Below are positions 33,683-61,860 of a DNA stretch of 64,000 nt, piece by piece. Position 1 is the first letter of the stretch. Every line of letters starts with the position of its first letter. Location: positions 8,954,357-9,018,356 of the forward strand of contig NC_089863.1 in NCBI RefSeq assembly GCF_036373705.1, given 5' to 3'. The position numbers and the translations under genes were made by a program. The DNA comes from Amia ocellicauda (Eukaryota > Chordata > Actinopteri > Amiiformes > Amiidae). The notes below the pieces were generated by a model, which was not told the origin of the DNA, ran no database searches, and saw only the letters and a program-made list of their open reading frames with translations.

Positions 33683-36600
33683 ATGGGAATTCACGGGCTG
33701 GCCAAGCTGATTGCGGACCAGGCGCCCGGGGCCATCAAGGAGAACGACTTCAAGAGCTACTTCGGTAATACTGTCATCATTATCATAGTATTATAGTTAT
33801 ATACAGCTCTGGACATTTTTTTTCTTTAATCAGCATCTCTACATGTATGGCAGCCATTCCATTCCATTCATATTTGTATTTGGAATTTGGGAGACATGTT
33901 GTCAGAAGTTTATAGAATAAAACAAATGTTCATTTTACCCAAACACATACCTATAAATAGTAAAACCAGAGAAACTGATCAAATTGAGAGACCTCTGCAA
34001 AAGTTTCCAGAGCTGTAGGCCTATATGTATTTGTATTGTTATTGTTTGTCAGTGAAGGTAAAAGGTTGTGTACAGTGTGTCAATTCTTCTCTGCTCTCTC
34101 TCTCTCTCTCTCAGGTCGTAAGATCGCTATTGATGCCTCCATGAGTATCTATCAGTTCCTGATCGCTGTGCGGCAGGACGGCAACGTGCTTCAGAACGAG
34201 GATGGAGAGACGACCAGGTATCCTGTCTCTCACCGCCTGACACACACTGCTGTGAAGGGTTCATGTACTGTAGTGAAGTCAGTGTATCATTGTATCCATC
34301 TCTCTCTCTTTCAGTCACCTGATGGGGATGTTCTACAGGACCATTCGGATGCTGGAGAGCGGGATCAAGCCGGTGTACGTGTTTGACGGGAAGCCACCGC
34401 AGCTCAAATCAGGAGAGGTCAGGGTCACTGCTTTGTTGATCTGTCTCTCTTTGTCTGTGTACCAATAGATACTGTTTATTTGGTTAAGTATTTCACATTT
34501 TACAAAATTAAAAACAATTCCAATTTTAATACCAATAGATAGTGTACCAATAGATAGATATAGCAATCACCCTCTCTTTTTCTCTCTCTGTCTCTATCCA
34601 GTTAGTGAAACGAGGGGAGAGGAGAGCCGAGGCAGAGAAGCTGTTGGCTCAGGCCCAGGAAGCAGGTAATGGACTGCAGCACAGTGCATTATGGGTGGCA
34701 GAATTATGACACAGGGCGCTGTGGGTCCCGGGACTGTGCAGCAGAGTCATGCTGTCAGGTGACTGGTGTAGCAGCGGTGTGTGTTTTGTGTTTGCAGGGG
34801 AGCAGGAGAACATCGAGAAGTTCAACAAGCGGCTGGTGAAGGTCACTCCGCAGCACAACGCAGAGTGCAAGGCCCTGCTGACTCTGATGGGGGTGCCCTA
34901 CGTCGAGGTACTGAGTCTGTTACACTAAAACACTGATTATCCGACCGCTGGGGTGGGTGGGTGTGTGGTCAGGGCAGTGACCGACCCGTGTCTCTCTCAG
35001 GCGCCCTGCGAGGCGGAGGCCAGCTGCGCGGCGCTGGTCCGGGCGGGGAAGGTGTTCGCCACAGCAACCGAAGACATGGACGGGCTGACCTTCGGCACCA
35101 CGGTGATGCTGAGACACCTGACCGCCAGCGAGGCCAAGTAACCCATCAGTTCCCTCTTTCTGTCAGCTCTTATCTATCGTCTATACCAGGGGTTTTCAAA
35201 CCGGTCCTGGAGTACCCCCTGCCCTGCTGGTTTTTGTTCCAACCTAGGTCTTAATTACTTAATTGACTGGCATATTGCTTTGTTAGGTCAATTAAGGATT
35301 CAATTAAGCAATTAAGACCTCAGTTGGAACAAAAACCAGCAGGGCAGGGGCTACTCCCGGACTGGTTTGAAAACCCCTGGTCTATAACTTTCGGCTATTA
35401 TGTATACTGTACAATACAAGTAATGGTATATACTGTACACCGGGGGTCCCCAATAGGTCGATCGCGAGCTACCAGTCTCTGGGGGGCTGGCCAAACGATT
35501 TAGAAAATGCAAGCAAAATAGCGGCTCCCCCCGAACCCAGAAGAAAGTACTGTCAGCAGAGATCCTTACACAGAGTAGCTCTCTCGTGATAAGAAAGGTT
35601 TGGGGACCCCTGGTGTTCACGGACTGTAACTCTTCCTCAGGAAGTTGCCGATCCAGGAGTTCCATTTCAACCGTATCTTGGAGGAAATGGGGCTGACGCA
35701 CGAACAGGTACAGTCCCTCTGTCCCTCTCTTTCCCTCTCTCTCCTCCGTGCACGGTGAAGGAGCTGTGTTGTACTGTCCCCTCTCTGTGTGTCGTTGCCC
35801 CTGTCTCCGTGACACGACTGTGTTGCTGACCCGCTCTGTGCGTCTCTCAGTTTATAGACCTGTGTATCCTGCTGGGCTGCGATTACTGTGGCACCATCAA
35901 GGGCATCGGGCCCAAGAGAGCCATGGACCTGATCCGGCAGCACCGCTCCATCGAGGAGATCCTGGATAACATCGACCTGGCCGTAAGCACAGCCTGCAGC
36001 ACGGCAGTCATAGTAGTGGTGTTGTGTGTTGCAGTGTGTTAGTGTTGCTGTGGTTGTGTGTTGTGCAGAAGCACCCTGTGCCCGAGGGCTGGCTGTTTCG
36101 AGAGGCGCGCGCCCTGTTCCTGAAGCCCGAGGTGGTGGACTGCGACACCGTGGACCTGCGCTGGACCGAGCCGGACCAGGAGGGACTGGTGCAGTTCATG
36201 TGCAATGAGAAGAACTTCAGGTGCGGAGAGACACTGAGGGACACAGAGAGAGAGAGAAAGACACACAGTGAGGAAACAGACACACTGGGAGGAGAGAGAT
36301 GCACACTGAGGGACAGAGACACACTGAGGGACACAGAGAGAGAGAGAGACCCTGAGGACACAGACACTGAGGGACACAGAGAGAGAGAGAGACACTGAGG
36401 ACACTGTGTTAGAAGTGTTGTGGTATTTTTTGCAAATGGATGTGATACTGATGCTGTGTTGTGTGTTCTTTTGTGCGTATACAGTGAGGACAGGATCAGG
36501 AATGGCTGTAAGAAGATCCTGAAGAGCCGTCAGGGCAGCACACAGGGCCGGCTGGACACCTTCTTCAGCGTGACTGGCTCCCTATCCTCCAAGCGCAAGG

Positions 36601-45747: not shown

Positions 45748-46852
45748 GCTCAGCAAAAAAAGAAATGTCCTCTCACTTTCAACTGCTTTTATTTTCAGCA
45801 AACTTAACATATTTCTAAGACATAAACTGAACATGTTTCACAGACATGTGACTGACAGAAATGGAATAATGTGTCCCTGAACAAAGGGGGGTCAAAATCA
45901 AAAGTAACAGTCAGTATCTGGTGTGGCCACCAGCTGCATTAAGTCCTGCAGCGCATCTCCTCCTCATGGACTGACCCAGATCTGCCAGTTCTTGCTGTGA
46001 GATGTTACCCCACTCTTCCACCAAGGCACTTGCAAGTTCCCAGACATTTCTGGGGGGAATGGCCCTAGCCCTCACCCTCCGATCCAACAGGTCCCAGACG
46101 TGCTCAATGGGATTGAGATCCGGGCTCCTAGCTGGCCATGGCAGAACACTGACATTCCTGTCTTGCAGTAAATCGCGTCCAGCGAAGGCGGGTTTGTGCC
46201 CAGAGGCGACGTTGTTGCAGGTGATGTCTGGTAAAGACCTGCCTTACAACAGGCCTACAAGCCCTCAGTCCAGCCTCTCAGCCTATTGCACACAGTCTGA
46301 GCACTGATGGAGGGATTGTGCGTTCCTGGTGTGACTCTGGCAGTTGTTGTTGCCATCCTGTACCTGTACCAGGTGTGATATTCCGATGTACTGATCCTGT
46401 GCAGGTGTTGTTACACGTGGTTTGCCACTGCAAGGACGATCAGCTGTCCTTCCTGTCCCTCTTTCTTAGGCGTCTCACAGTACGGACATTGCAATTTATT
46501 GCCCTGGCCACATCTGCAGTCCTCATGCCTCCTTGCAGCATGCCTAAGGCACGTTCACGCAGATGAGTAGGGACCCTGGCCATCTTTCTTTTGGTGTTTT
46601 TCAGAGTCAGTAGAAAGTTCTCTTTAGTGTCCTAAGTTTTTATAACTGTGACCTTAATTGCCTACCATCTGTAAGCTGTTGGTGTCTTAATGACTGTTCC
46701 ACAGGTCCATTAATTGTTTATGGTTCATTGAACAAGCATGGAAAACATTGTTTAAACCCTTTACAATAAAGATCTGTAAAGTTATTTGGATTTTTACAAA
46801 ATTATCTGTAAAATACAGTGTCCTGAAAAGGGACATTTATTTTTTTACTGAG
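45748..46852 (-). mobile_element. Decayed Tc1/mariner-type transposon
   Basis: The ends read CTCAGCAAAAAAAGAAATGTCC and, on the opposite strand, CTCAGTAAAAAAATAAATGTCC, both within TATATA-rich DNA. The minus strand encodes fragments of a Tc1-family transposase: an N-terminal helix-turn-helix part after MARVPTHLRERALGML, and a C-terminal part with SPDLNPIEHVWDLLDRR and GGHTRY. The central catalytic region is missing and frames are broken, so it is non-autonomous. It lies between pck2 and psme1. Confidence 0.9.
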
Positions 46853-51575: not shown

Positions 51576-54500
51576 GTGTGTGTGTGTCAGACGCAGGCTG
51601 TGTAGCTCTGATTGTCACTGATCGTTCTGTGTGTTTCAGGTGGACGCCTTCTGCAAACAGCTCAGCAAAGAGGTGAGTGACTGAGTGTGTTGAGCGCGGC
51701 TGCTGAATCGATGTGTGTCGAGTTGTGCTGTTGTACTGATGTCGTGTATTGATCGTTAATTGTCTGTCGGCTCTTCCAGGCGGAGACCCTCGTTGCCTCT
51801 TTCTTCCCTCAGAAGATCGCAGAGATGGAGGAACTGCTACAGGTACAGAGAGAGAGAGGGGACAGAGGGATAAGGATGGATGGAGAGGGATGGAGGAATA
51901 GGGATGGAGAGGGTTGGAGAAAGGGACGGAGGGATAGGGATGGAGAAAAAGGGATGGAGAGGGACAGGGATGACGAAGCACAGAGGGATGGAGGGATAGG
52001 GATGACGAAGCACAGGGACGGATGGATAGGGATGGAGAGAGGGACAGGGATGGAGAACGGGACAGAGGGATGGAGGAATAGGGATGGAGAGGGTTGGAGA
52101 AAGGGACGGAGGGATAGGGATGGAGAAAAAGGGATGGAGAGGGACAGGGATGACGAAGCACAGAGGGACGGAGGGATAGGGATGACGAAGCACAGGGACG
52201 GATGGATAGGGATGGAGAACGGGACAGAGGGATGGAGGAATAGGGATGGAGAGGGTTGGAGAAAGGGATGGAGAAAAAGGGATAGAGGGATGGAGAGGGA
52301 CAGGGATGACGAAGCACAGAGGGACGGAGGGATAGGGATGGAGACGGACAGAGGGATGGAGAGGGACAGTGATGGAGAAAGGGACAGGGATGAAGAAGCA
52401 CAGAGGGATGAAGGGATAGGGATGGAGAGGGACGGAGGGATGGAGGAATAGGGATGGAGAGGGTTGGAGAAAGGGACGGAGGGATAGGGATGGAGAAAAA
52501 GGGATAGAGGGATGGAGAGGGACAGGGATGACGAAGCACAGAGGGACGGAGGGATAGGGATGGAGAAAGAGGGATGGATAGGGATGGAGAGCGGGACAGG
52601 GATGGAGGAATAGGGATGGTGAGGGTTGGAGAAAGGAATGGAGGGATAGGGATGTAGACAGGGACAGAGGGATGGAGAGGGACAGTGATGGAGAAAGGGA
52701 CAGGGATGAAGAAGCACAGAGGGATGAAGGGATAGGGATGGAGAGAGGGACAGGGATGACGAAGCACAGAGGGACGGAGGGATAGGGATGGAGAAAGAGG
52801 GATGGATAGGGATGGAGAGAGGGACAGGGATAGCGATGGAGAGAGGGACAGGGATGCATAGAGGGTTGGAGTAAGAGGGATAGGGATGGAGGCAGGGACA
52901 GAGGGATGGAGACGGAGGGATGGAGGCAGGGACAGAGGGATGGAGAGAGAGGGATGGGTGGAGATGTACAGCAGTGTACTTGCACAGTAGAGTCCTGTAT
53001 TATCAGTGCATTGCGCTGTATGCAGTTTTACTGTGCAGTTTACTATACTGTGGCCCTGCACTGCATGATCTATATTGTCATTATAGTACACTGTAGTGTA
53101 GCAATGAACGCTGCAGCTCCCACAGGGTCTCAGTGTTTCTGTTTACATTTGCCATTAACGATATGTTTACGATATCACTTGGTCAACAATTTCGGCCAAT
53201 CGGAGCTCTTCTAAGGGGACTCGCCAGGCGTCAGCCAATCAGCGACAGCCTTTTGTGAATGTTTCTCTTCACTGTGATGTGCGTTGCCTGCCTATTAATG
53301 GTTTAATATGTTCTTACCACGTTATAACTGCGTGTTTAACGTTTTTTGGGAGAAAAGGCTCAACTACCGATTGTCTTGAAAGTAATTAAGCCTTAAACAT
53401 GTATTTCCTATATTCGATTAACGACCATTTCAATTAAGTTCAGTTAGGCTATTATCGCTACCCGCCGGACCACGGTCCTGTAACGCTGGCCTGTGTTGCT
53501 GTGTGTCCTCCCGTCCAGGAGGAGGCACTGAATGTGAAGGACCTGTCGTCTCTGAAGGCTGAGCTGGACATCCCCATCCCCGACCCGGCCAAGGAGGAGC
53601 TGAAGAGGAAGAAGAAGGAGGAGGTTGGGCTCCATCTTTTCAGTCGTCCACACCTGTATCAACATACCAGTCACCCTCTCCCTCTCTGTGTCTCATTGCT
53701 GTTTCTCTGTTCTTCCTTCAGAAGGAAGCGAAGGAGGGAAAGGACGAGAAGAAGAAGGATAAGGACGAGGAAGACGAGGGTGAGGAGCAGTAACCCTGTG
53801 GTGGCTGTGGATGAAGGCCTGTGTGTTGAGCTGTGTAACAGAGTTGCGGTGGTGTAACCGTGTTGTTGTTGTTGTGTGGTGGTGAGTGCAGGCCCGCCCT
53901 GCGGCCCGGTGAGCTGCAATGCCAAAGTGGAGTCCCTGCTGAAAAGAGTGAAGCCAGAGATTCAGACGCTGAAGGAGAAGCTCAACACGGTCAGTCTCTT
54001 AACACACTGATCACTGTGCTGAACACTGACTGACACACCATCTCCCACGACCTTTCCTTACTCTCCATCTCCCACACTCGCACCCCTCTCTCTCTCTCAG
54101 GTATCTATGTGGGTGCAGCTCCAGATCCCCAAGATTGAGGATGGCAACAACTTTGGTGTCGCTGTGCAGGTCAGTGTGTGTGTGTGCAGTGCTGTGCAGT
54201 GCTGTGTGTGTGTGTGTGCAGTGCTGTGCAGTGCTGTGTGTGTGTGTGTGCAGTGCTGTGCAGTGCTGTGTGTGTGTGTGTGCAGTGCTGTGCGTGAGTG
54301 CAGTGCTGTGTGTGTGTGTGTGCAGTGCAGTGCAGTGTGTGTGTGAGTGCAGTGCAGTGTGTGTGTGAGTGCAGTGCAGTGTGTGTGTGAGTGCAGTGCA
54401 GTGCAGTGCAGTGTGTGTGTGAGTGCAGTGTGTGTGTGAGTGCAGTGCAGTGTGTGTGTGAGTGCAGTGTGTGTGTGAGTGCAGTGCAGTGTGTGTGTGA

Positions 54501-56074
54501 GTGCAGTGTGTGTGTGTGTGAGTGCAGTGTGTGTGTGAGTGCAGTGCAGTGTGTGTGAGTGCAGTGCAGTGCAGTGTGTGTGTGAGTGCAGTGCAGTGTG
54601 TGTGTGTGAGTGCAGTGCAGTGTGTGTGTGAGTGCAGTGCAGTGCAGTGTGTGTGTGAGTGCAGTGCAGTGTGTGTGTGTGAGTGCAGTGCAGTGTGTGT
54701 GTGTGTGTGTGCAGTGCAGTGCAGTGCAGTGTGTGAGTGCAGTGCAGTGTGTGTGTGGTGCGGTGCTGTGTGAGTGCAGTGCAGTGTGTGTGTGTGTGCA
54801 GTGCAGTGCAGTGTGTGTGAGTGCAGTGCAGTGTGTGTGTGAGTGCAGTGTGTGTGTGAGTGCGGTGCAGTGCAGTGTGAGTGCAGTGCAGTGTGTGTGT
54901 GTGCAGTGCAGTGCAGTGCAGTGCAGTGCAGTGTGTGTGTGGTGCGGTGCTGTGTGTGAGTGCAGTGCAGTGTGTGTGTGAGTGCAGTGTGTGTGTGTGT
55001 GAGTGCAGTGCGGTGCTGTGTGTGTGCAGTGCAGTGCAGTGTGTGAGTGCAGTGTGTGTGTGGTGCGGTGCTGTGTGTGAGTGCAGTGCAGTGTGTGTGT
55101 GAGTGCAGTGTGTGTGTGTGTGAGTGCAGTGCAGTGTGTGTGTGAGTGCGGTGCAGTGCAGTGTGTGTGTGAGTGCAGTGCAGTGTGTGTGTGTGTGCAG
55201 TGCAGTGCAGTGTGTGTGTGTGTGAGTGCAGTGCAGTGTGTGTGAGTGCAGTGTGTGTGTGGTGCGGTGCTGTGTGTGTGCAGTGCAGTGTGTGTGTGAG
55301 TGCAGTGCAGTGTGTGTGTGAGTGCGGTGCAGTGCAGTGTGTGTGTGAGTGCAGTGCAGTGTGTGTGTGTGTGCAGTGCAGTGCAGTGTGTGTGTGTGTG
55401 AGTGCAGTGCAGTGTGTGTGAGTGCAGTGTGTGTGTGAGTGCGGTGCAGTGTGTGTGTGAGTGCAGTGCAGTGTGTGTGTGTGCAGTGCAGTGTGTGTGT
55501 GTGTGAGTGCAGTGCAGTGTGTGTGAGTGCAGTGTGTGTGTGGTGCGGTGCGGTGCTGTGTGTGTGCAGTGCAGTGCAGTGTGTGAGTGCAGTGTGTGTG
55601 TGGTGCGGTGCTGTGTGTGAGTGCAGTGCAGTGTGTGTGTGAGTGCAGTGCAGTGTGTGTGTGAGTGCGGTGCAGTGCAGTGTGTGTGTGAGTGCAGTGC
55701 AGTGTGTGTGTGTGTGCAGTGCAGTGCAGTGTGTGTGTGTGTGAGTGCAGTGCAGTGTGTGTGAGTGCAGTGTGTGTGTGAGTGCGGTGCAGTGTGTGTG
55801 TGAGTGCAGTGCAGTGTGTGTGTGTGCAGTGCAGTGTGTGTGCAGTGCAGTGCAGTGCAGTGTGTGTGTGTGAGTGCAGTGCAGTGTGTGTGTGTGTGAG
55901 TTCAGTGCAGTGCAGTGTGTGTGTGAGTGCAGTGCAGTGTGTGTGTGTGTGCAGTGCAGTGTGTGTGTGAGTGCGGTGCAGTGCAGTGTGTGTGTGAGTG
56001 CAGTGCAGTGTGTGTGTGTGTGTGAGTGCAGTGCAGTGTGTGTGTGAGTGCAGTGCAGTGTGTGTGTGAGTGCG

Positions 56075-56106
<32 letters not shown>

Positions 56107-57285
56107 AGTGCAGTGCAGTGTGTGTGTGTGTGTGCAGTGCAGTGCAGTGCAGTGCAGTGCTGTGCAGTGCTGTGGGTGTGAGTGCAGTGCAGTGCAGTGT
56201 GTGAGTGCAGTGCAGTGCTGTGTGTGCAGTGCAGTGTGTGTGTGGTGCGGTGCAGTGCAGTGTGTGTGTATTAACAGTGTGTTTGTGTTTCAGGAGAAGG
56301 TGTTTGAGCTGATGACTGGCACTCGCACAAAGATCGAGGCGTTCCAGACACAGATAAACAAGTAAGTACACAGAGCACTACACAACTCACAAAACCCTGC
56401 ACGGCACACACAACACTGCACAACATTCACAACAAACAAAGCACACAATACTACACAACACACTACTCCTAATATTTAATAACACATATTATAGTCAGTA
56501 ATAACAATAACGCTAACATTAAAAGCAGGAACAGTAATGTGTGTGTTTGTGTGTTTCAGGTATTTCAGTGAGAGAGGAGACGCCGTCGCCAAGGCCTCCA
56601 AACAGACGCATGTGGTGTGTGTCTGTGTGTCTATCTTTGTGTGTGTCTGTGCGTGTGTGTGTGTGTGTGTGTGTGTATGTGTCTGTCTGTGTGTCTGTTT
56701 GTTTGCAGTGTGCGACTGTTGTTTAGCTGTGTGTTTTCAGTACAGTGTTTTCCAGTACATGTGACAGTAGTTGTGTTGCACCGTGTATGAGGGTGTTGCT
56801 GTGCTGTTGCAGTTGCAGTGTGTGTGACTGTGTCTTGCAGTGTATGTGAGTGTTTTGTGTTGCAGTGTTTTCCTTTACATGTGACTGCAGTTGTGTTGTT
56901 GTCATGCTGTTGCAGAGTGTGTGACTGTAGGGTTGTGTTGCTGTGTTGTTGCAGGGGGACTACAGGCAGCTGGTGCACGAGCTGGACCAGAACCAGTACT
57001 GCGAGATCCGCATCATGGTGCTGGAGATCAGGAACACCTACGTGAGTCCGCGGTCATCTGCAGTTCCCCTCGGAGCCTGATCAGCGAGGGGGCGCTGTTT
57101 CTCACCATTACATATTATTGTTTTTCCTACATCCCATCTCGTTAGTGTGATGATGATGCTGTATTCCGTCATGCGCTGTGATGTAATGGTGTCTCTCCCC
57201 GCAGGCGGTGCTCTATGACATCATCAGCAAGAACTTCGACAAGATCAAGAAACCCAGAGGAGACTCCAAAGCCCTCATCTACTGA
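48831..57285 (+). CDS. psme1: Proteasome activator subunit 1 (PA28-alpha)
   Basis: Eleven exons: 48831-48869, 51640-51672, 51780-51842, 53519-53623, 53722-53779, 53892-53989, 54101-54169, 56294-56361, 56560-56614, 56955-57041 and 57205-57285. They join in frame to 251 residues (human 249). PA28-alpha with PA28-beta forms the 11S heptamer that opens the 20S proteasome gate and aids MHC class I peptide production. Seen: an N-terminal helix, a Lys/Glu KEKE insert (about 60-101), GPPCGPVSCN, the activation-loop motif IPKIEDGNNFGVAVQEKVFELM, YFSERGDAV, GDYRQLVHELDQ and the proteasome-binding C-terminus ending ALIY. Match to alpha is clearly better than to PSME2/PSME3, whose KEKE inserts and tails differ. 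Introns 1, 3 and 7 are filled by three unrelated minisatellites. An ISRE sits upstream. Confidence 0.96.
49050..51432. repeat. 2.4-kb purine-rich minisatellite in psme1 intron 1 (about 50-bp unit)
   Basis: About 48 units of 46-52 bp contain GGCAGGGAGACGCAAAGAG, GCAGAGGGAGGGAGTC and AAAAAGAGAGAG. Copies differ mainly by GA count and by CGCAAAG against CACAGAG. The plus strand is nearly pure purine and open in all three frames (about 810 codons each); this reflects composition, not coding. Confidence 0.97.
51536..51585. repeat. (GA)n then (TG)n microsatellite
   Basis: A GA run followed by GT repeats lies about 55 bp before psme1 exon 2. Confidence 0.9.
51845..52960. repeat. 1.1-kb GGGATGGAGA minisatellite in psme1 intron 3
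   Basis: Units of GGGATGGAGAGGGA, GGGACAGGGATGACGAAGCA and GGAGGAATA type are arranged in larger blocks. The block near 51891 recurs at an offset of 180 bp (52071) and again near 52441. It starts directly after the exon 3 donor. Confidence 0.95.
54172..56275. repeat. 2.1-kb GTGTGTGAGTGCAGTGCA repeat in psme1 intron 7
   Basis: Alternating (GT)n and GCAGT modules make imperfect units of about 18-26 bp across almost the whole intron. They start within a few bases of the exon 7 donor and end about 20 bp before the exon 8 acceptor. The 786-codon minus-strand frame is a repeat artefact. Confidence 0.97.
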
Positions 57286-58648: not shown

Positions 58649-60477
58649 TCAATCTGGGATAAACAGTCCCACTCCGGGCCGGCCGGGGCAGAGCCAGCCT
58701 GGGGTCTGGCGGAACCAGCCCTGGTACAGCGCCCGCCAGGCCAGGCAGCCCAGCGCACCGCCCAGCAGCTGGGAGGGGAAGGAGGGCCGGTAGGCCAGCA
58801 GGCACAGCAGCAGGAACAGCCACAGCAGCAGGAGGGTGACGCAGAGCAGGAACAGCAGCCGCAGGGGGCCGCACACGCCCACCGAGCCCAGCGCCGACCA
58901 CACCCGGGCCACGGGTGACCCGACCGCCGCCCCGTCCCTCTCCGGCCCCGCCCGCCCCCCCGCCAGGGCCAGGTAGGGGGCGAACACGGCCATCTCTTCG
59001 GCCAGCAGGAGGCAGCACAGCACCAACAGGAAGGTCTCGTCCGACACCTCGTACCCGCGCCACTGCAGCCCAGCACCCACGCAGCCCGCCTTGCCCTGGC
59101 CCTCCCGCAGCAGCAGCAGCGTGGGGGGCTCCGGCTGGGGGGCCGCCGAGGAGGAGCGGAAGTCCGAGCCCAGCCCCAGCCCCGCCAGAGAGGAGGCGGC
59201 GGGGTCAGAGGAGGAGGGCGGCGCCAGCGGCTGGTAGCAGCTGCCCGTGGCGTTTTCCAGCACCGCCAGGCCCCGGCGCACCCCCCACCACAGCGCCGCG
59301 GCCACGGCCAGCCGGGACAGGTGGCGCAGGGACAGGGACGGGCGGCCCCGGCAGCTGTAGGACAGGAGTAGCACGAAGGAGCCACACAGGACACAGGTCC
59401 AGCCGCAGCCCGAGCTCAGAAACGCACTGAGAGAGAGGGGGGGGAGGGAGAGAGAAGGATGGAGAGGGAGAGATGGAGATGGAGATGGAGGGGGAGATGG
59501 GGGTAGAGAGATGGAGAGGGAGAGGGAGATGGAGAAGGAAGGAAGGAGGGAGGGAGGGAGTAAGGTGGAGAAGAAGGAGGGAAAGAAGGAATGGAGGTAT
59601 AAGGAGGTAGGAGAGAGAGAGGGAGGGAGGGGGAGCAGAAAGGAGGGAGAAGAAGAAGGTGGGATAGATTGAGCAGGAGAAGGAGGGAGAGCGAGGGGGA
59701 GAAGAAGGATGGAGAGGGAGGCAGTAGAGAGGGAAAGGGGGAGAAGGAAGTAGGGAGAGAGGGAGGGAGGGGAGAGATGGAGTGGGAGAAGGAAAGGGAG
59801 GAGGAGGGGTCAAGAAAGAGGGAGGGGAGAAGAAGGAGGGATAGAGGGAAGGAGGAATGGAGGTATAAGGAGGGAGGCAGTAGAGAGAGGTGGAGAAGGA
59901 AAGAGGGAGGGGAAAGATGGAGGGGGAGAAGGAAGTAGGGAGAGAGGGAGGGAGGGAGGGAGGGAGGGAGGGGAGAGATGGAGTGGGAGAAGGAAAGGGA
60001 GGAGGAGGGGTGAAGAAAGAGGGAGGGGAGAAGAAGGAGGGATAGAGGGAAGGAGGAATGGAGGTATAAGGAGGGAGGCAGTAGAGAGAGGTGGAGAAGG
60101 AAAGAGGGAGGGGAAAGATGGAGGGGGAGAATGAAAGAGGGAGGGAGGGAGGAGAAAGAGGGAGGGAGGGGGAGATAGAGGGAGGGGGGTTGAGGGAAGG
60201 AGAGAGGGGTAGAGGGATGGAGAGAGGGAGACAGTCAGGCAGTGTGTCAGTCAGTCAGAGAGTCAGGGTGTCCGTGTGTCCGGGTGTCGGTGACTCACCG
60301 GTACAGGTAATGCCTCTTGTTGGCGAACACGCTGTGCTGAGACGCCCACAGGCTCAGCGCCGGGCCCAGCAGAACCAGCGCCGACAGCATCAGGTGGAAG
60401 TGCCGGCGGAAGGACGCATGGCCAAGGAGGTAGGCGGCTCCGTCCGTCACCAGCGCCAGAACCGTGTACAGAATCAT
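58649..60477 (-). CDS. FITM1-type fat storage-inducing transmembrane protein lacking the conserved histidines
   Basis: Two exons, 60477-60299 and 59426-58649, join in frame to 318 residues (human FITM1 has 292). FIT proteins are multi-pass ER membrane proteins; FIT2 and yeast homologues act as acyl-CoA diphosphatases in lipid-droplet and ER lipid homeostasis. Family marks are GCGWTCVLCGSFVLLL (66-81), RHLSRLAVAAALW (94-106), ATGSCYQPL (119-127), WRGYEVSDETFLLVLCCLLLAEEMAVF (182-208) and AWRALYQGW near the end. The position of the first family histidine (SSHTFLL in human FITM1) is E190, and the second (near YTHK) is S278. The exon 2 segment at 128-170 is Ser/Pro/Leu-rich. ATG at 60477 is the first in-frame methionine. 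It could be a fish-specific FITM1-like paralogue rather than FITM1 itself, so no symbol is given. Confidence 0.88.
59430..60235. repeat. GA-rich minisatellite filling the fitm1-like intron
   Basis: The GGGAGA/AAGGAAGGAGGG-type repeat has a larger period: a block containing GGAATGGAGGTATAAGGAGG near 59851 recurs near 60056, about 205 bp away, and in part near 59590. It lies directly ahead of the exon 2 acceptor in transcript orientation. Confidence 0.9.
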
Positions 60478-60509
60478 CCGGACTGGACTGGAGTGCAGCA
60501 CTTCACCAG

Positions 60510-60870
60510 TCTATTACACTGCGCCGGCCCGGCCCGGCTCTGTGCTGCCCAGTAGCGATCCAGCGAGAACAAGCCCAGTGTGAGCGGTTTGGCGGGGATC
60601 CAGTGAAGATCGAGGGAGAATTCTCTCTCTCTCTCTCTGTCTCACGTTCTGTCTATACCATGCAGACTCTCAAGCGTCCTGTGAGAGCAGAGGGCTCTCT
60701 GTGTCTCTGCCTCTCTCCGTCAATCCCTCTCTCTGTTTACCACCTTGCCCTTGACCACCCCTCCCTCTCTCCCTCTTTTTTCCCCCTTTTTCTCTACTTC
60801 TCTTTCTCTCTCTCCCTCCTTGTACCAAATAATGCACAGAAGTTTCTAATGACGTTTAGGAAAGGACACG

Positions 60871-60907
<37 letters not shown>

Positions 60908-61860
60908 CGACACTGAGGAAGTTATTAAAAGTAATATGTAACCCTCCCTCTCTCTCTCGCTCTATCTCTCTCTCAGGGGGAGTTACAGAAAAAGACACAT
61001 GCTCAGGCCCCTGCCCCCTCTGCCCGTCCCTCCGCTCCTCTGTTAAAAGTTCAGAGGTCAGAGGTGGGTGGGGGGGTGGACACTGAACCACACAGAAATC
61101 ACAACACACACACTGTGCTCTGATACTTTACTGTATTATACTGCACTACACGTACTGTAAAGCACTGTGCTGTGCCGACACAGTGAGTATAGTGCACAGT
61201 ACACACTTTACTGTAGTATACCACACTATACCAGACTTGCTGTTGTATGGTAATATTATACTGTAGTGTAATATACTGGAGTCTACTGTAGTACACAACA
61301 CTGGGCCCAGTGAGAGTACTGTAGTATACTGTGCTGTATGTAGTATTTTAGTATATTGCACTATATTGAATTTAGTGGTGTACAATACTGTACTGTAATA
61401 TATTGTAATATACTGCACTGTAGTGCAATATACTGTATTGTACTATAATATACTGTATTGTAGTGTAATATACTGTACTATTTTGTATTATATTTCACAG
61501 TACTGTCCACCTGTAGCTGTAACTGTAGCTTTAAACATTGACCCCCTCCTCTCGCTCTCCCTAATCCCCAGATCGACTGTACCTCCTTCCCTCTCTCTCT
61601 CTCCATTCTTAGGCACACAGCTGTCTGTCCTGGCCTCTGTCTCTGTCAATCACCCCCTCTCTCCCTCTGTTCTAGCTCACAGCACTGTCCGTCATCTCAA
61701 TCCTCACATTCCCGTCGTTCCTCCACACACTCCCCCTCCCTCTCTCTCTATCCCCCTTCTCTCCACTGTCACAATGCATACTGAATTGGAGCTGCAGTTC
61801 CCATTTCTGCCTGTGCCATACGAGGGGCGCTGTTTCTCCCACACCATATTGGCAGTGTAT
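60510..61860. other. Intergenic DNA between dcaf11 and the fitm1-like gene
   Basis: No gene. It contains CT microsatellites (60625-60640, 60870-60905), CT-rich pyrimidine stretches and a TACTGTA/TAGTATACTG degenerate repeat at 61120-61500. Positions 60480-60600, directly upstream of the fitm1-like start, are GC-rich and may hold its promoter. Confidence 0.45.

Follow-up and report, generated by a model that had tools for sequence, protein, structure and literature searches.

The window, by which we mean the whole stretch of 64,000 nucleotides analysed (C20:8954357-9018356), contains an intact FITM1 gene whose product, the sole copy found in the genome of Amia ocellicauda, keeps some features of the FIT membrane frame and appears from its alignment to have lost the LPT/PAP2-type active site. 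We consider this protein to be probably a non-catalytic lipid binder. The gene model, the neighbouring genes, the loss of the triad and the histidines of the FITM2 encoded by the same genome are observed; from these we infer the inactivity of FITM1, its lipid binding, its tissue and its location.

Gene model and family membership

The gene lies on the minus strand and comprises the following features.

60299..60477, minus strand: FITM1 exon 1, coding part, from the ATG to the split codon R60, ending in CG directly before GTGAGT
59427..60298, minus strand: FITM1 intron, phase 2, 872 bases, GT-AG
58649..59426, minus strand: FITM1 exon 2, coding part and stop codon, 100% match in the same genome
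58412..58417, minus strand: candidate poly(A) signal AATAAA, 232 bases past the stop codon, assigned by motif only

The frame runs unbroken from the ATG at 60477 to a stop codon ending at 58649 and encodes 318 amino acids in two exons, with no stop in 318 codons; the limits given by the first-pass annotation (58649..60477) are exactly these two ends. After the intron, the reading frame picks up again at 59426, directly after CCTCTCTCTCAG. The two-exon structure proposed in that annotation is confirmed by the GT-AG intron, by the unbroken frame and by the FITM2 gene of the same genome, the intron of which falls in the same phase at the aligned codon (V58 in FITM2, R60 in FITM1), and an error in the gene model was rejected because of this shared position and phase. 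GC content at codon positions 1, 2 and 3 is 0.70, 0.55 and 0.91, and an in-frame stop (first base 60513) precedes the ATG with 11 codons in between. Purine-rich tandem repeats make up most of the intron, and 2.3 copies of a 201-base unit among them occupy 59727-60188. Within 60478-61700 there are two CA[CG][CG]TG E-boxes, each more than 1 kb from the ATG. Searches of the 64,000-nt window for Rfam families and tRNA genes returned neither.

The FITM1 protein matches the Pfam family FIT (PF10261) over residues 49-294 with 27.3 bits (cut-off 21.4, E 3.2e-6), and none of four control sequences (the reversed protein and three block-shuffled copies) matched any family at E<=10. The family signature, described as strong on first inspection, is thus above the curated cut-off, but that description was an overstatement: the FITM2 of the same genome scores 88.4 bits against the same family, the Pfam search across the whole genome at E<=10 did not return the window FITM1 at all, and three fragments of the protein scanned separately against Pfam all stayed below the cut-off (17.0 bits, 12.4 bits and, for the fragment carrying the C3 motif, no match). 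Searching with the FITM1 protein, we recovered no relative from the PDB at E<=10 and no NCBIfam family. A PAP2 match in FITM2 is below its cut-off (18.8 versus 27.2 bits, E 0.0015), and the Pfam scan of FITM1 gave none at E<=1. Among GTDB genome contigs, 590 pattern matches were obtained, of which none was confirmed.

Neighbouring genes

On one side of FITM1, an exon at 63336-63536 matches DCAF11 (PDB 9ptu, E 3.6e-29), the third of 409 matches in the PDB search. The two chains ranked above it are both called Tako8, and we take them to be designed propellers. On the other side, two exons on the plus strand (53507-53719 and 56952-57077) match the N- and C-terminal domains of PA28, the second favouring PSME1 (5msj, E 2e-9) over PSME2 and PSME3 (about 8e-4).

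53507-57285, plus strand: exons of PSME1 (PA28 alpha), from domain and PDB matches

Further along the window, exons of PEPCK lie at 38.6-40.3 kb (the best PDB chains are cytosolic, in a search that did not separate PCK1 from PCK2) and pieces of EMP70 at 20.6-23.7 kb. Human FITM1 is located at 14q12 (PMC9644577), and a table of human patient data gives the gene order PCK2, three disease loci, DCAF11, FITM1, PSME1, PSME2, RNF31, IRF9, REC8L1 and TM9SF1 (PMC10340279). As DCAF11 and PSME1 flank the window gene in the way they flank human FITM1, the window gene is FITM1 by position.

Other features of this region were recorded. One PSME1 intron (about 54170-56270) consists by eye almost wholly of TG and CAGTGCAG repeat over about 2 kb. 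An exon at 36042-36170 (plus strand) matches flap endonuclease 1, FEN1 (about 4e-9), and beside it, at 35830-35982 (plus strand), there is a 5_3_exonuc match below its cut-off. A short frame at 45965-46231 (minus strand) resembles the end of a transposase, presumably of the Tc1/mariner type. Since the available portion of the human table (PMC10340279) shows no FEN1 among the genes surrounding FITM1, the linkage of FEN1 here may differ.

Loss of the active-site motifs

The same genome encodes a FITM2 on contig C4, assembled from exon 2, found by the genome Pfam search, and an exon 1 located in the adjacent sequence; it has 258 amino acids and both histidines (SGH, FHNIEH). FITM1 and FITM2 are identical at 77 of 252 aligned columns (about 31%), and the alignment is free of gaps in the regions of the catalytic motifs and of KxNxxN. 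The two proteins have in common the FIT family, the position and phase of the intron, the TM4 signature and the cysteines of loop 3/4, whereas SGH, HxxxH-K and KxNxxN are kept by FITM2 and absent from FITM1.

For naming the catalytic positions we used the definitions of Hayes et al. 2017 (PMC5798408), in which SGH contains H-1, HxxxE contains both H-2 and the third residue, and K+5 is conserved. There, the third triad residue is E, sometimes Q or H and rarely D, the C3 consensus is TAOYFHTOOEKOOG, and [K]xNOON is the loop 1/2 motif of FITMs. The corresponding stretches of FITM1 are as follows.

59036..59044, minus strand: altered C2 motif, SDE (residues 188-190) in place of SGH, with Glu190 at H-1 by alignment to FITM2
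58760..58792, minus strand: altered C3 motif, YRPSFPSQLLG (residues 272-282) in place of YFHxxxEKxxG, by alignment to FITM2
60301..60318, minus strand: altered luminal KxNxxN motif, KRHYLY (residues 54-59), aligned to KRNVLN of FITM2

The first-pass annotation had set Glu190 and Ser278 opposite the two family histidines. For Glu190 the assignment is correct: the landmarks H155 and FLL157-159 of FIT2 fix the spacing of C2 and place this residue at H-1, and S152-G153-H154 of FITM2 aligns with S188-D189-E190. Ser278 has to be reassigned to the third triad position, with Pro274 at H-2 and Gln279 at K+5, according to the C3 consensus and to FITM2, in which Y214-F215-H216-N-I-E-H220-K221-L-L-G224 aligns with Y272-R273-P274-S-F-P-S278-Q279-L-L-G282 of FITM1 and H220 is the third triad residue. 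We base this C3 assignment on the alignment with FITM2 (about 31% identity) and on the published consensus, because the gene has only a modest Pfam score and escaped the genome-wide Pfam search, and because the C3 fragment had no match. The claim that neither catalytic site carries a histidine stands, as the FITM2 alignment places none there, and the full protein sequence contains no histidine after residue 95. Both asparagines of KxNxxN are also replaced (by His56 and Tyr59) and K54 is kept; this motif is not obligatory for every member, since it occurs in only 13 of 40 Scs3p homologues (PMC5798408). Judged from the aligned residues, the whole LPT-type triad is absent from FITM1.

Retained family features

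Residues 191-206 of FITM1 are identical to FITM2 at 9 of 16 positions, including F192-L193-L194 and E203-E204. FITM1 therefore shows the TM4 signature used as a test for the FIT family (FLL with E203 and E204), of which the FLL form is described in PMC2875400. The better-than-average conservation of TM4 may reflect membrane packing only. The two cysteines of loop 3/4 are also kept, with C123 and C175 of FITM1 aligned to C120 and C139 of FITM2.

An AlphaFold2 model built from the two sequences is of low confidence (mean pLDDT 47.7, pTM 0.33) and contains long helices at residues 2-17, 23-47, 55-84, 89-120, 189-215, 242-272 and 278-300, plus two short ones; in it, Glu190 starts one long helix and Pro274-Ser278 sits between two others. 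The hydropathy profile separates fewer than all six of the transmembrane segments expected of the FIT family, in which both ends are cytosolic. The predicted structure weakly supports the FIT topology, and that only.

FITM1 carries a 33-residue insert in loop 3/4 that FITM2 does not have (residues 131-163, encoded by exon 2), rich in Ser, Pro, Ala and Gly. Also encoded by exon 2, N118 begins an N-A-T sequon a little ahead of the first cysteine of loop 3/4, where FITM2 has D-L-T, and a luminal N-glycan on FITM1 is possible from this motif.

The loss of the motifs could also be explained by a FITM1 recently released from constraint and now decaying, in which the active site was lost before any break in the frame arose. 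We regard this as unlikely, although the modest Pfam score agrees with it and, of the ten residues that define the motifs (K, N, N, S, G, H, F, H, the third residue and K+5), only K54 and S188 are identical to FITM2, which is no better than the 77 of 252 columns overall. If the release were recent, an unbroken frame would be no surprise, the probability of no stop still being 0.57 at 0.02 and 0.25 at 0.05 neutral changes per site; at 0.1 changes per site, however, 2.8 stops are expected and this probability falls to 0.06 (in a simulation, 142 of 2000 sequences stayed free of stops), and at 0.2 to 0.004. The estimate considers point changes only, under a rough substitution model, with 2.9% of such changes giving rise to a stop. 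The absence of stops in 318 codons, together with the intact splice pair, speaks against a long decay of FITM1, without showing selection. The kept TM4 signature and loop cysteines also argue against decay.

Probable function

We favour the reading first suggested, that of a pseudoenzyme which binds lipids or serves as a scaffold; the sequence supports it in part. The case is now stronger than when it was first made, because the changes affect KxNxxN as well as every position of the triad. Histidine-based phosphotransfer of the LPT type by FITM1 is very unlikely on this evidence, since the C3 histidine, required for all PgpB activity, is a proline. H-2 is essential to every activity of PgpB and is always replaced in the LPR/PRG pseudoenzymes (PMC5798408), pseudo-phosphatases of the LPT family which resemble FITM1 in this replacement, in a likeness drawn from published description only and with a different family.

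The proposal that Asp189 and Glu190 sustain an altered chemistry is poorly supported because the second histidine, which PgpB needs, is a proline here. An enzyme using this pair or other residues seems to us quite improbable: the acidic pair does sit exactly at C2 (SDE), and changes of H-1 and D-3 in PgpB affect its substrates variably (PMC5798408), but such an enzyme would have to work with Pro274 at a position essential for PgpB, with K+5 and KxNxxN changed as well, and with no histidine after residue 95.

TAG and DAG are bound by both FITM1 and FITM2, which also partition TAG into droplets; FITM1 binds less and makes smaller droplets (PMC9644577). The non-catalytic lipid binder that we propose would reside in the ER/SR membrane, bind di- and triacylglycerol and help triacylglycerol to enter lipid droplets, without catalysis; any acyl-CoA cleavage in this genome would be performed by FITM2, which has both histidines.

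The role of FITM1 might instead be regulatory rather than in lipid storage, either by pairing with FITM2 or, by analogy with LPR/PRG and SMSr, as a phospholipid sensor. Pseudoenzymes of the LPT family and related proteins have been described as sensors (PMC5798408), and FITM1 retains the luminal loop and the cysteines in it; we hold this explanation to be unlikely.

Within the lipid-binder reading, we give somewhat less than even credence to the bolder proposal that the only FITM1 of this genome is a dedicated non-catalytic member, which would have shed the triad, K+5 and KxNxxN and kept a neutral-lipid-binding frame under selection. If this is true, it is a natural separation-of-function protein, and the lipid-droplet work of FIT1-type proteins does not need the diphosphatase step. 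A FITM1 without an active site, in a genome whose FITM2 has both histidines, would provide a natural test of whether FIT proteins act at lipid droplets by cleaving acyl-CoA or by binding lipids: should droplets still be induced, catalysis would be dispensable for that part.

Relation to known FITM1 proteins

According to one review sentence and to the remark of Hayes et al. that in FITM1 the G of SGH is replaced by S (PMC5798408), mammalian FITM1 has the histidines. The window gene resembles mammalian FITM1 in its Pfam family, in its neighbours DCAF11 and PSME1, in the Ser of the C2 motif and, like the human and mouse genes, in having a single intron between two exons (PMC9644577); it differs, as set against published descriptions, by Glu at H-1 and Pro at H-2. 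Murine FIT1 has 30 extra N-terminal residues (PMC2875400) that seem to be absent here, since the window FITM1 starts level with FITM2.

Changes of key residues in a small number of FITM1 proteins, above all those of fish, have been noted by Hayes et al. 2017 (PMC5798408). The window FITM1, which by comparison with this description has likewise lost key catalytic residues, is for this reason a further case of a phenomenon in print since 2017. What is new here is the corrected assignment of the sites, the joint loss of the triad, K+5 and KxNxxN, the presence in this genome of a FITM2 that retains both histidines, the orthology by neighbouring genes and the lack of a detectable second FITM1. Our literature search returned no mention of fitm1l and no fish FITM1 sequence in the texts available.

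Copies in the genome

A search of the whole genome (988,188,214 bases, 385 contigs) with the FITM1 protein gave seven matches. Two are the exons of the window gene itself, three belong to FITM2, and the remaining two are weak hits on contig C5 (one at E 0.32 with two stops, the other at E 1.15). At the latter, the frames of at least 70 amino acids, including the matched frame, showed nothing FIT-like by eye. A second FITM1 or a FITM1-like paralogue was thus not found by this whole-genome protein search, in which a very divergent copy could be missed because the genome Pfam search missed even the window FITM1. Of the four places returned by the Pfam search for FIT domains, FITM2 alone exceeds the cut-off; at one of the other three, all weak (L004), the matched frame was not FIT-like by eye. 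At 258-1298 of L013 (minus strand) there is a long open frame of 346 amino acids, transposase-like, which we take to be a Tc1-type transposase.
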